Source: Planctomycetaceae bacterium
GTDB lineage: Bacteria > Planctomycetota > Planctomycetia > Pirellulales > Thermoguttaceae
NCBI GenBank assembly: GCA_009778035.1
Contig: WRKP01000002.1
Location: 1-64,000 of the forward strand
DNA: 64,000 bases
Direction of reading: 5' to 3'
Positions 3,059-63,064 of this stretch are shown one piece after another; position 1 is the first letter of the stretch; the number at the start of each line of letters is the position of its first letter. The position numbers and the translations under genes were made by a program. Below the pieces are notes generated by a model. That model was not told where the DNA came from, did not search any database, and saw only the letters and a program-made list of their open reading frames with translations.

Positions 3059-4312
3059 TCACTCTCCGAAGACGATCTTATTCTTCATCATCCGCTCACG
3101 CGTTTCGATCTTCAATCGTAGGTATTCCATTGGCCGATCGCCCTTAATGCGATTGCAATTGCCGCAAAGCAGTTGATAATTCTCATAATAATCGCCGCCG
3201 CCCTTCGATTTCGGAATAATATGATCTACTTCCAAATTGCGAACCTGAAAATCTTCTCCGCAAGCATTGCACTTGCCTTTCTGCTCCTTATAAAGTTGCT
3301 GTTTTACCGACTCCGTCGGCTGCACTACTTGCACATCGCTTCGCTTCGGAATCTGATCGGTTGCTATAAAATCTTGGAAGAGCCGACCAGCATCGCTCAA
3401 TCGTTGTATTAAAACTCCTACCGCTTGTTTCTCAATGTCAATTCCGATCCATTGTCGTTGCAACTGTTGAGCGGCAACGCACGTTGTTGCACATCCGCAA
3501 AAGGGGTCAAGTACGGTATCCCATTCGTTTGATGATGCAAGAATGATGCGTTTTAGTAATGCCAGCGGTTTCTGGGTTGGGTAGCCAGTGCGCTCTTTTC
3601 CACGTATGACGGGAATGTCCCAAACATCATCGGGATACTTACCGTCTTTCATATATACAATTTCCTGTTTGCCATTTCGTAGTGCCGATATTTTATAGCG
3701 TCGCCCTTTTTCGTCGGTGTGGTTATAACGTTTTTCGGTTAATTCTGAATACGGCAATAAAATGTTGTTCGGAAAAAACACTGGCCGTTTTCCTTTGCAA
3801 TACCAAAAAATAGTATCGTGTTTTTTGGGCAAGCAGTATTTCGGTATCGAATTACCCGTATAACGCCAAATAATTTCATTGACAAAATGCTGTTTTCCAA
3901 AAATGCTATCCAGCAAATGTTTCAAGTAGTGACTCGCCGTCGGATCGCAATGCAAATACAAAGAGCCCGTATCTTTTAACACGCGGTGCATTTCTACAAT
4001 CCGCTGTGCCATATAAGTCAAGTAGGCCATCATCGGCTTGCTATGCACTTCGCCAACGCTGGCAATGTATCTCGCCAACGATGGAAACTGCACTGCAAGC
4101 GAGTCGAGATAGTATTCATCGACGTCATTCCAAGTCCACATATCTTTGAAACTGGCACCGGCGGCTTTGCTTCCGATGGGAGCGGAGAACATTTGGTTTT
4201 TGTTGAATGGCGGATCGAGATAGATCAGGTCAACGATTTCGCTGTTCATTCCTGATAAGACGTATAAATTATCGTTCGTGTACAGTGTGTTTTTGGAGGC
4301 ATTTTTTGCCAT
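3059..4312 (-). CDS. Beta-class DNA (adenine/cytosine amino) methyltransferase fused to an HNH nuclease domain
   Basis: The protein has 417 residues from the ATG at 4312 (MAKNASKNTLYTNDN). An upstream start at 4387 would add 25 residues that look unrelated. The catalytic motif LIYLDPPFNKNQ lies near residue 34. The AdoMet-binding motif VLDPFCGCATTC comes much later, near residue 270. This order defines the beta class of amino-methyltransferases. Between them lies a long target-recognition region. The C-terminus, about residues 340-395, is an HNH module with two CxxC zinc pairs (CNAC, CGNC) and the catalytic VDHIIPKSKGGG. Modification and possible cleavage are thus in one chain, and no separate restriction gene is adjacent. 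The gene is AT-richer than its neighbours, suggesting horizontal transfer. HNH activity is an inference from motifs. Confidence 0.85.
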   Translation of the reverse strand: MAKNASKNTLYTNDNLYVLSGMNSEIVDLIYLDPPFNKNQMFSAPIGSKAAGASFKDMWTWNDVDEYYLDSLAVQFPSLARYIASVGEVHSKPMMAYLTYMAQRIVEMHRVLKDTGSLYLHCDPTASHYLKHLLDSIFGKQHFVNEIIWRYTGNSIPKYCLPKKHDTIFWYCKGKRPVFFPNNILLPYSELTEKRYNHTDEKGRRYKISALRNGKQEIVYMKDGKYPDDVWDIPVIRGKERTGYPTQKPLALLKRIILASSNEWDTVLDPFCGCATTCVAAQQLQRQWIGIDIEKQAVGVLIQRLSDAGRLFQDFIATDQIPKRSDVQVVQPTESVKQQLYKEQKGKCNACGEDFQVRNLEVDHIIPKSKGGGDYYENYQLLCGNCNRIKGDRPMEYLRLKIETRERMMKNKIVFGE

Positions 4313-7400: not shown

Positions 7401-8803
7401 TCGGCATCCAATTCCGAGGGAAGCGGAAAGATAATCCGGCCTTCGGCGTCGCTGATGGTCGTTCGGCGATCGACTTCCACTCCGCCGGGCTTGGCAAAGT
7501 AGAGTGTCGCCTGGACTCCAGCGAGCGGCTGTTGAGTTTCCGCATCAATTACGGAACTCCAATGCTGTTCCGCGTTCACGTCCGGGGACTGCACCGCAGG
7601 CGGCTCCGTTCCCGGCTCTTTGGGCAATTCCCGAGCAACAAATTCAACACGGAACAGCGCGACGCTCAAGATCGCAGCGGTTCCCAATACGAGTAATGTT
7701 TTTCTCATGGTAAAGTTCCTTTCTAATGGAGGGATTTCAAGTAATGATGCAACCCGACGCCCGATTCGGGATTTCGTCAGGTTGCGGCCCAAAATGGACT
7801 GACGGGCAACAAAATGCGTCGGGGCGTTCTCATGCAACAGCAAGAGCACGCTAGCGAATTCCGCGATTCCCCTTTGAGAGGGCTTTGCTTTCTGGCCTGC
7901 GAACGCTTCCCGATCACAAAGTTGCTCCGCCAATTCGTCAAACCGGTTCGCGGCATAGTGCGCAGCCGGATTGAACCAATGCGGCAAGGCTAAAATCCGC
8001 ACGAAAAAGGATTTCCAAACGTCGCGCCGCCGGAAATGTGCCAATTCATGCTTCAAAACACCAAGCCGACCGGACTCGGAGAGTTCATCCCAAAGTTCGT
8101 AAGGCACCACCAAGCGGTAGCCCCACGGCGTTCGGATCAATGCCGGCCCGAGCCCTTGTCCGGCATTATCGTGCGACAGCACCATCGGTATTTTCCGCGG
8201 GTCAATACCGTGTGTTGTCAGCAATTTTTCCCACGGTTCCGCCAGAGCGTCCTCGGCGGGTTCCGTGCATCGCAATCGGCACAGGACGCGAATGTATCCC
8301 GTTGCCGCCAGGAGTAAGGTGATGACCATTCCGGCAAACCAAAGGGAGAGAAGGATTCGGTACGCCGCATCCGTTGCATCCCCCGTGCTGATTACGTAGT
8401 CCTCTACAGAGCCGGTTACAAAGCCCGAAGCACCAGCGAGGGGCTCCGGGCTGACGTTTTCGTCAGAAAGCAGCAGAGCGTCATTCCGGTGAAAGCCGGA
8501 ATCGAGGCGAGCGACTTCCATCCCGGCTTGCTGCGTTCCGATTTGTGCCGGAATGACGGGCGAAAGGCTTTCGCTCTGCGTTTTGGAGGCGTCTGCTTCC
8601 TGCGTGGGAGCGATGTAATAGGGGACCTGGATGACGGGTTGCAGCCAGCACCAGCCGGTGAGCAAAACGGCAACCCAGAGCAGCCGTGCGAGTTTCGGCA
8701 ACTGATGTTCAATTTTCCGAAGCGCGAGCCAAGCGATCCCGCCGCAAAGCGTCAGGAGGAGCGTCGTTCGGAGCAAAGCGATGAGGATGTCGTCGTTGGG
8801 CAT
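4454..8803 (-). CDS. BlaR1/MecR1-type M56 membrane metalloprotease sensor with a long regulatory-like tail
   Basis: This 1449-residue protein begins with BlaR1 architecture. Helices lie at about 6-28, 41-60, 150-172 and 367-386. The cytosolic zinc protease site HELAH is at 252-256, with E293 in FDELAEQLCD as the likely third ligand. In the usual model the protease is switched on by an outside signal and inactivates the BlaI repressor. Instead of a penicillin-binding domain, the ~1050-residue outer part is a string of carboxypeptidase-regulatory-like beta domains (repeated G-x-V-x-D-x-x-G-x-P patterns). The signal is therefore probably not a beta-lactam. Residues ~83-117 (VIPAQIGTQQAG, then MEVARLDSGFHRND) are translated MITE sequence between helices 2 and 3. 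The gene starts 21 bp after blaI and must share its promoter. Confidence 0.9.
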   Translation of the reverse strand: MPNDDILIALLRTTLLLTLCGGIAWLALRKIEHQLPKLARLLWVAVLLTGWCWLQPVIQVPYYIAPTQEADASKTQSESLSPVIPAQIGTQQAGMEVARLDSGFHRNDALLLSDENVSPEPLAGASGFVTGSVEDYVISTGDATDAAYRILLSLWFAGMVITLLLAATGYIRVLCRLRCTEPAEDALAEPWEKLLTTHGIDPRKIPMVLSHDNAGQGLGPALIRTPWGYRLVVPYELWDELSESGRLGVLKHELAHFRRRDVWKSFFVRILALPHWFNPAAHYAANRFDELAEQLCDREAFAGQKAKPSQRGIAEFASVLLLLHENAPTHFVARQSILGRNLTKSRIGRRVASLLEIPPLERNFTMRKTLLVLGTAAILSVALFRVEFVARELPKEPGTEPPAVQSPDVNAEQHWSSVIDAETQQPLAGVQATLYFAKPGGVEVDRRTTISDAEGRIIFPLPSELDADMEAGTWILVEKEGYVSESNGRQAQWAERFLNEGRLVCDVFPLQRAETITGRLVDEQGQPLADVLISVLRQKARPFRNDYIEVETMDRTSDADGRFRIDVAKDEKIAFWALPETLAPQFVSPAQNQARGDHGNIVLKKGFEPIVTVLDKDGKPVHDVWVNLTRQGEDFAVGFLSPYTRSALTDQEGKARLHPVTEGDYNIRVRPSSMARRNPPWSIANSVTWRADRDGDAKTVDGVFYAINETLSETALEVTLQAQQTVNIDVQFSDKTADSYRELNANISGRQEDGNFFASRMSSDSPSAYQGDGLFSFQVPVGLENAAFRVPFDTNTTYRMRIEGESEWRNANNRSELPLGTIEQAMRIEVAAFKSPNIILNVVDELGQPVKEYYAWLEYISNGTPATIKVEGDKIRVEITSEHFHVIDWDYATSLVPLLGILNVSFKYKNFGNDETKINADGILPDEAMRLHIVGRGYEIVSQEVPKMSEGEERELTVVLPSPPLAQGPPREPGTPLTNVAESFDVTDSINISGRIRLPDGSPAAGYRVYVRTESRVGSPGDARGAIVHTAADGTFQIEDIPNLAESVLSIMSTNAGERFTMKPLEFVVQADMEPLDITLEEGIPIRGKVVYENGLPAVERSVIFVQHTMFESRDDTVPSRTTTTFSHFWSSTPTDENGEYTAYLLPGEYLIYRVNRTIVINETDTARQFDLTFSTPIFVELELADGSPVSEQIVSWFVPEFRDDTTRSHSESFTRGQFIFESSEKSGSLYFIDNHGKHGTIAKITPDMFGTTQRFTLQPMGSVTARLVDAENRPMAGQLMRLFYSHSDPASHWSPTYTETDSDGRVLLPVLSGKMPIMVAPPYSLSERLRTIHGTMRHFPVERDMDLAPGENVDLGTIKLVRVFGTFELERSNIQVNAMRGPDSPVREDRPMVTMLWIEDGAYDILLPPGHYRLSGMDYVLSIDEDSKDIRLDFDADGRGRIQGTEPG
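8455..8557. repeat. MITE-derived core translated inside the blaR1-type gene
   Basis: GCGTCATTCCGGTGAAAGCC and, about 60 bp on, TTTGTGCCGGAATGACG match the two hairpin halves of the dispersed element. The reading frame passes straight through, giving a peptide closely resembling what other copies would encode (compare the copy at 62912-63064). Confidence 0.75.
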
Positions 8804-8824: not shown

Positions 8825-9208
8825 CTATTCATGTTTCGCAATCAAATCTTTCAGCAGGGTAATTTCTTCGGCGGTCAGTTTCCGTTTTTCGGTCAGATGG
8901 GCAATGAGCGGAACGAGGCTTCCGCCGCTGATTTTTGCCGCTGTCTCAAAAAACGAACCGGACGCAATTTCCGTTTTGACGATGGCCTCGTAGAGTGCGG
9001 GATAATCTGCACTGCGAACGAGCACGCCTTTATCGACCATTCGGTTGAGTCGGGTTTGTATGGTGGTGTAGCCGACGGGTCGGGAATAGTTTTTATGCAC
9101 GGCGGCGAGGGGAGCGGGCCCGAGTTTCCAGAGGAGGTCGAGCAGTTCCATTTCGCCTTCGCTAAGGGGGGTGAAGGATGGGTTTGTGGTATTTTTCGCC
9201 TTTGCCAT
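8825..9208 (-). CDS. blaI: BlaI/MecI/CopY-family transcriptional repressor
   Basis: The protein has 127 residues from the ATG at 9208; a TTG at 9217 would add three. The N-terminal winged helix is clear: FTPLSEGEMELLDLLWKLG, then VGYTTIQTRLNRMVDKGVL as recognition helix and wing. The helical C-terminal part (GSFFETAAKISGGSLVPLIA, then LTAEEITLLKDLI) is the dimerisation and protease-target region of the family. It lies directly upstream of the M56 sensor and should repress both genes by binding the two TTAC-N10-GTAA dyads at 9224-9265. The sensor protease would relieve repression. Family assignment is secure; the inducing signal is unknown. Confidence 0.93.
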   Translation of the reverse strand: MAKAKNTTNPSFTPLSEGEMELLDLLWKLGPAPLAAVHKNYSRPVGYTTIQTRLNRMVDKGVLVRSADYPALYEAIVKTEIASGSFFETAAKISGGSLVPLIAHLTEKRKLTAEEITLLKDLIAKHE

Positions 9209-9223
9209 GGTGTTCAAACAGAC

Positions 9224-35571: not shown

Positions 35572-35690
35572 AGCGAATCCATTTTTGCTTTGGACAAAAA
35601 ATCGTCATTCCGGCGAAAGCCGGAATCCAGACATTGCATGTGATGCCAGTTCCTCTGGATTCCGGCTTTCGCCGGAATGACGGAAGTGAT
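35569..35690. repeat. MITE-like element starting at the stop codon of the ThuA gene
   Basis: TAGAGCGAATCCATTTTTGC, then TTTGGACAAAAAATCGTCAT and both hairpin cores; the far terminal repeat is missing. The ThuA frame reads AAT TAG straight into it. Confidence 0.85.
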
Positions 35691-62911: not shown

Positions 62912-63064
62912 TGGAGCGAATTCATTTTTGCTATGAACAAAAAATCGTCATTCCGGCGAAAGCCGGAATCCAGCCGAGCGACGTGCATATCGTTTCCCTG
63001 GTTCCCGGCTTTCGCCGGGATGACGGAGAGGGGGGACGTCCAGACCAATTCTGAATATGCTCTA
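62912..63064. repeat. MITE-like element, complete copy
   Basis: GAGCGAATTCATTTTTGCTA at the left, both cores, GTCCAGACCAATTCTGAATA and TGCTCTA at the right. It lies between the membrane protein gene and recJ and would provide the leader of the former. Confidence 0.8.

Follow-up and report, generated by a model that had tools for sequence, protein, structure and literature searches.

The CGTC repetitive extragenic palindromes (REPs) were defined by Di Nocera et al. (2013), who reported dimers of these repeats inside genes of several bacteria, where they encode 20-30 amino acids, and proposed that such insertions are tolerated in loops and linkers (PMC3733652). The repeats were reported without a dedicated transposase, and one family, CGTC-1, was equated with Rickettsia palindromic element 6 (RPE-6) and with dRS3 of Neisseria; the results of that study place CGTC repeats in Proteobacteria, Chlorobi, Bacteroidetes, Spirochaetes, and Thermotogae, and its abstract also names Planctomycetes (PMC3733652). 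In Rickettsia, different RPEs occupy near-identical places in orthologous genes (PMC3767692). This report describes a CGTC-1-type REP dimer lying in frame within a sensor gene of a Planctomycetaceae bacterium, in a 64,000-nucleotide stretch of DNA (contig WRKP01000002.1 of assembly GCA_009778035.1, positions 1 to 64,000), hereafter the window.

The finding fits the description of Di Nocera et al. in every feature tested and is a known phenomenon in a new lineage. Like the CGTC-1 family, the repeats described here have a CGTC tag and an 8-bp stem starting with AT; their loop is 4 bases long, their tail is of the CCA type, and they occur mostly as head-to-head dimers. They are mostly intergenic, with some intragenic dimers encoding 20-30 amino acids, and no dedicated transposase has been found for them. 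They differ from that family in host lineage and in that part of the dimers lie within elements of about 145 bp flanked by terminal inverted repeats (TIRs). The new elements are the host lineage, an apparent lineage-specific burst of the repeat, an example in PriA, and a possible recurrence of insertion at one site.

The Rickettsia elements RPE-1 to RPE-7 resemble this case as in-frame palindromic insertions kept in genes, and two of them, RPE-6 and RPE-4, are CGTC REPs. Unlike in Rickettsia, there is no sign of mass decoration of genes in the sampled part of this genome, where genes hold only 3 of the 82 full dimers, including one with weak support. RPE-1 to RPE-3 are longer and are not known to be related in sequence. 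The likeness to Rickettsia had been proposed in a preliminary description of this DNA and is supported; such insertions had already been described in bacteria other than Rickettsia, further CGTC REP dimers among them (PMC3733652).

The REP dimer within the sensor gene

The host gene (8803-4454, minus strand) encodes a 1449-residue M56 (BlaR1-type) zinc-protease sensor (Pfam PF05569, E = 5e-17). Within it, at 8479-8558 on the minus strand, two CGTC-1-type REPs stand head to head as an 80-bp dimer of the form CGTC...GACG, whose DNA is CGTCATTCCGG...CCGGAATGACG and which encodes sensor residues 83-108 in frame (26 amino acids, VIPAQIGTQQAGMEVARLDSGFHRND). From the open frame, this peptide would be translated as part of the sensor. 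A profile hidden Markov model built from 54 other clear dimers, with the sensor copy left out, scores that copy at 47 bits (nhmmer, E = 1.2e-12), and the reversed-sequence null gives no match even at E <= 10. Very probably a CGTC-1 REP dimer that is, or once was, mobile inserted long ago in the sensor gene, and the segment is this copy, kept in frame.

The preliminary description had claimed that a dispersed element is translated in frame in the sensor, and the profile match bears out the element itself; the peptide similarity on which it drew, between VARLDSGFHRND in the sensor and VARLDSGFRRND in the copy at 62912-63064, is correct. The limits that it gave, 8455-8557 and residues 83-117, capture a real, in-frame match far beyond chance but are corrected to 8479-8558 and residues 83-108, and its insert of about 35 residues is reduced to 26. 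The residues ALLLSDEN directly after VIPAQIGTQQAGMEVARLDSGFHRND fall outside the element.

One REP half, CGTCATTCCGGTGAAAGCCGGAATCG (8479-8504, plus strand), is well kept, with 1 mismatch to the 23-base REP pattern; the other, CGTCATTCCGGCACAAATCGGAACGC (8533-8558, minus strand), is eroded, with a stem that the sequence and the RNA fold show to be partly broken. The CGTC tag is present at both outer ends of the dimer, at 8479 and 8558. Compared with the stem, loop, and tail of CGTC-1, one half is intact except for 1-2 bases and the other eroded, a match that places the copy in this family. The RNA fold of the sensor copy has an energy of -34.3 kcal/mol, versus -51.2 and -61.0 kcal/mol for two other copies in the window. 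Its closest relative is identical at 63 of 80 positions, and the copy at 62946-63025 (minus strand), a reference dimer that forms the core of the TIR-flanked element at 62912-63064 and lies upstream of a gene and not inside it, at 61 of 80.

The segment had been labeled the core of a miniature inverted-repeat transposable element (MITE), a label that follows from the fact that, in other copies, the 80-bp dimer forms the core of a longer element (about 145 bp) with TIRs. The shared core stands, but it is a CGTC-1 REP dimer with TIRs on some copies only; the sensor copy has neither of the GAGCGTATTC/GAATACGCTC ends within 75 bp, and a MITE reading of this copy is ruled out by the lack of TIRs. 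Ten bases past the element is TTCTGACGAAA (8458-8468, minus strand), which recurs at the same offset from one other in-gene copy (G000:C8:39569-39646); the two sites account for all its occurrences in an 862-kb sample of the genome and for all exact pattern matches genome-wide. The shared sequence may stem from gene conversion between linkers or from a longer variant of the element.

Position of the segment in the sensor

Hydropathy, which like the coding score used below is a simple home-made measure, peaks at residues 6-24, 42-60, 150-168, and 366-384 of the sensor, giving four hydrophobic segments. Residues 83-108 lie between the second and third transmembrane helices (TM2 and TM3), the loop to which the insertion had been assigned. 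Homologues of the sensor were searched in 21 genomes of the genus, 119 of the family, and 397 of the order, and in the genome_contigs collection, and the best are 36-48% identical. Between fixed anchors, the TM2-TM3 loop of the homologues ranges from 55 to 171 residues. The sensor loop has 97 residues and, without the 26 that derive from the repeat, 71, as compared with 65, 67, 67, and 81 in the closest homologues (L068, L061, L069, and L071, respectively). Two homologues (L066 and L072) have tandem repeats in their TM2-TM3 loops (EEPEVSLEEHNGF and TSAPV), which again point to a loop under loose constraint.

The favored account is that a REP dimer landed in a length-tolerant loop of the sensor with a net length divisible by three. 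Two frames of the element are mostly stop-free, and the sensor would use the one reading VIPA..(A)GIQ...LDSGFRRND; the 26 extra residues would make the loop longer without disturbing the four-helix metalloprotease module. The insert may have been kept because it adds a hydrophilic peptide, free of stops, to a variable loop that is expected to be extracytoplasmic, and the added peptide is probably near neutral. The repeat has since eroded toward ordinary sequence, with one stem broken and the hairpin weaker.

Several open reading frames in this genome span a REP that lies upstream of the true start (GAPDH, a GspF/PilC-like protein, an Obg-like GTPase, and a Clp ATPase), and by analogy the frame through the sensor repeat could be spurious, with the true protein starting downstream and the repeat serving only as a 5' regulatory hairpin. 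This is highly improbable, as homologues from other genera share the start methionine of the sensor and their first two helices align with its 60 N-terminal residues, which precede the repeat, the coding score is good (0.19), and the BlaI-type gene ends just upstream. A single open frame links the N-terminus homologous to TM1-TM2 with TM3 and the M56 domain.

That the residues are instead ancestral, with a chance likeness to the element, or that the element family derives from the sensor gene, is barely credible. The loop is of low complexity and variable in all homologues, and one of them (L069) has a short AIPAEV run. Against this explanation are the 80-bp DNA similarity given by the profile, the inverted symmetry retained at both ends, and more than 300 REPs elsewhere in the genome. 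Element-like DNA is absent from every sensor-homologue and PriA locus of the other genomes searched, the sole match in this set of loci (L067) being the window's own genome, and none of the orthologues seen carries the same segment without element-like DNA.

Several observations weigh against an insertion of the REP dimer. As 80 bp is not divisible by three, the core must have brought 1 (or 1+3n) extra base with it or gained it, and no target duplication is visible at the sensor copy. In the genomes searched there is no orthologue closer than about 48% identity, and with a loop of 55-171 residues among the homologues an empty site at the exact position is not demonstrable; the loop is hypervariable, and the gap that had been expected against orthologues cannot be scored cleanly. 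The window's genome is, moreover, a metagenome-assembled genome that is 75% complete.

In MecR1 and BlaR1, the counterpart of this loop (L2) is extracellular and disordered and contacts the sensor domain (PMC6925264), and an effect of the insert on signaling is therefore possible. The REP segment might have been exapted, its added residues altering sensing or signaling, for example by docking on an extracellular domain as L2 does, and the frame has indeed stayed open in a diverged copy. Exaptation is nevertheless improbable, given that homologues conserve neither the length nor the sequence of the loop and that the changes show no sign of purifying selection: relative to the consensus of the nearest copies, 12 codons differ and 7 of these alter the amino acid, with mismatches spread over the three codon positions as 4, 6, and 7.

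The same sensor loop carries a different translated palindromic repeat, GGGAGAGGG..GGGTGAGGG, in homologues from two other families (L104, at about 2455-2526, and L105, at about 2296-2382), in whose genomes the repeat has 30 and 113 matches, respectively. The presence of different repeats in one sensor loop is comparable to that of different RPEs at one place in Rickettsia genes (PMC3767692).

The REP family in the genome and its relatives

The window's genome (2.46 Mb) has 314 exact matches to the REP pattern, and the window alone has 18 matches to the 23-base pattern, versus 0.00 expected from shuffles. The family consensus is ATTCCGGC-GAAA/GCAA-GCCGGAAT-CCAG, in which the 8-bp stem starts with AT, the loop has 4 bases, and the tail is of the CCA type. 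In the 862-kb sample there are 101 elements, 82 of which are full dimers; 54 of the 60 strong dimers are exactly 80 bp long with CGTC outermost, and the head-to-head arrangement thus predominates. The family is dispersed, high in copy number, and mostly intergenic (3 of the 82 full dimers are in genes). A near-perfect intergenic dimer is found in the window at 35603-35682 (plus strand; RNA fold, -61 kcal/mol).

About half of the dimers have at least one end of the TIR element of about 145 bp, some of them between TA dinucleotides, which suggests a second route of mobility for part of the family. Some copies thereby resemble bacterial MITEs (RUP, NEMIS/Correia, and ERIC), having inverted ends GAGCGTATTC/GAATACGCTC with TA on each side; in contrast to MITEs, only 10 of the 82 dimers have both of these ends, and the sensor copy has none. 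At least two different TIR elements have this same REP dimer as their core, one with GAGCGTATTC/GAATACGCTC ends (62912-63064 in the window, and G000 copies) and one with GTTCGGAAACC ends. No REP-associated transposase gene was found in the 75%-complete genome. A REP-associated tyrosine transposase (RAYT) was considered as the mobilizer and rejected, the sole PF01797 gene of this incomplete genome being IS200-like with no REPs within 1.5 kb.

The exact REP pattern is absent from 20 congeners. One match occurs in one other member of the family and one in one further genome of the 394 searched from the order, the two genomes being G130 and G262; about 480 other genomes of the order hold two matches between them. 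Single matches in a loose 20/26 scan were judged to be chance. With 314 copies here and none in the 20 congeners, the family has apparently undergone a recent, lineage-specific burst without an evident transposase. Such a burst makes it possible to compare near-empty sites in core genes, priA for example, and offers a tractable setting for how repeats enter reading frames and turn into protein sequence.

PriA and other intragenic copies

The C-terminal part of PriA bears VIPAQAGIQPNGSQGAPLGSGLRRND, which derives from a REP dimer (G000:C52:1525-1604, locus L211) and is preceded by LEHIPNWPGIAS, a translation of the larger TIR element's left arm. Congener PriA proteins, 74-81% identical, lack the REP-derived residues; at this site most have shorter, unrelated residues, and in one (L220) a stretch of its own, about as long but also unrelated, fills the site. 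In this genome, therefore, CGTC REP dimers do insert into genes in frame. Because a PriA so similar to those of congeners bears a REP, contamination is ruled out as the source of the repeats. PriA is another replication/repair gene, as in the list of Di Nocera et al. (PMC3733652). Its REP copy lies outside the 862-kb sample, scores 67 bits, and is not degraded.

Within the sample, three full dimers lie in credible genes: the sensor copy, one in a 565-residue protein with a Zn-ribbon and an STN-like region (G000:C8:39569-39646), and one in a 166-residue protein with no family match, a weaker case (G000:C8:55129-55204). Other open reading frames that span REPs (GAPDH, Obg-like, ClpC-like, GspF-like, and others) were rejected as intragenic cases, because the repeat either precedes the true start or falls in a shadow frame. 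The three sampled copies each follow a membrane helix, and a variable linker holds the PriA copy. One frame, VIPA..RND, is common to all four, although the second frame, SFRRKPE..WIPAFAGMT, is stop-free about as often (76 against 87 translations). By profile score the three sampled copies rank 77, 79, and 81 of 82, with weak hairpins; the chance of 3 of 3 in the lowest six is about 2e-4 (20/88560), a figure to be read with the third case uncertain and the PriA copy not degraded.

These copies, together with those in homologues of the sensor, tentatively suggest, as something a little short of an even chance, that in these bacteria unrelated palindromic families are a recurrent source of new linker sequence. 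The TM2-TM3 loop of the sensor may have been struck at least three times independently (by the CGTC REP, and by CCCTCTCCC..GGGAGAGGG..GGGTGAGGG in L104 and L105), and in-gene REPs may favor linkers and one preferred frame.

A second repeat family is present in priA (L211; G000:C52:3044-3109 and 3803-3910), where a GC-rich palindrome encodes ARAGGVSPPVSPPVG and a very strong hairpin at the start of the open frame reads ARAGGVSPRV..RGLTPPARAR.

The host gene and its neighbor

The features of BlaR1/MecR1-type signaling in the sensor are the M56 zinc-protease module, its HELAH zinc motif, four membrane helices predicted from hydropathy, and a BlaI partner gene. A sequence search of the PDB for a solved structure that would give the topology had no match at E <= 1. 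In the C-terminal part, Pfam gives only CarboxypepD_reg (carboxypeptidase-regulatory-like) domains (PF13620, E = 6.1e-25) and related Ig-like domains; no penicillin-binding sensor domain was found there, and NCBIfam blaR1_generic scores the sensor at 24 bits against a cut-off of 400. The sensor is therefore not a beta-lactam sensor in the sense of BlaR1, and the term BlaR1-type, as used in the preliminary description, holds for the signaling module only. The gene directly upstream of the sensor (8825-9217, minus strand) encodes a BlaI/MecI-type repressor (PF03965, E = 3.2e-17), the usual partner of an M56 sensor.
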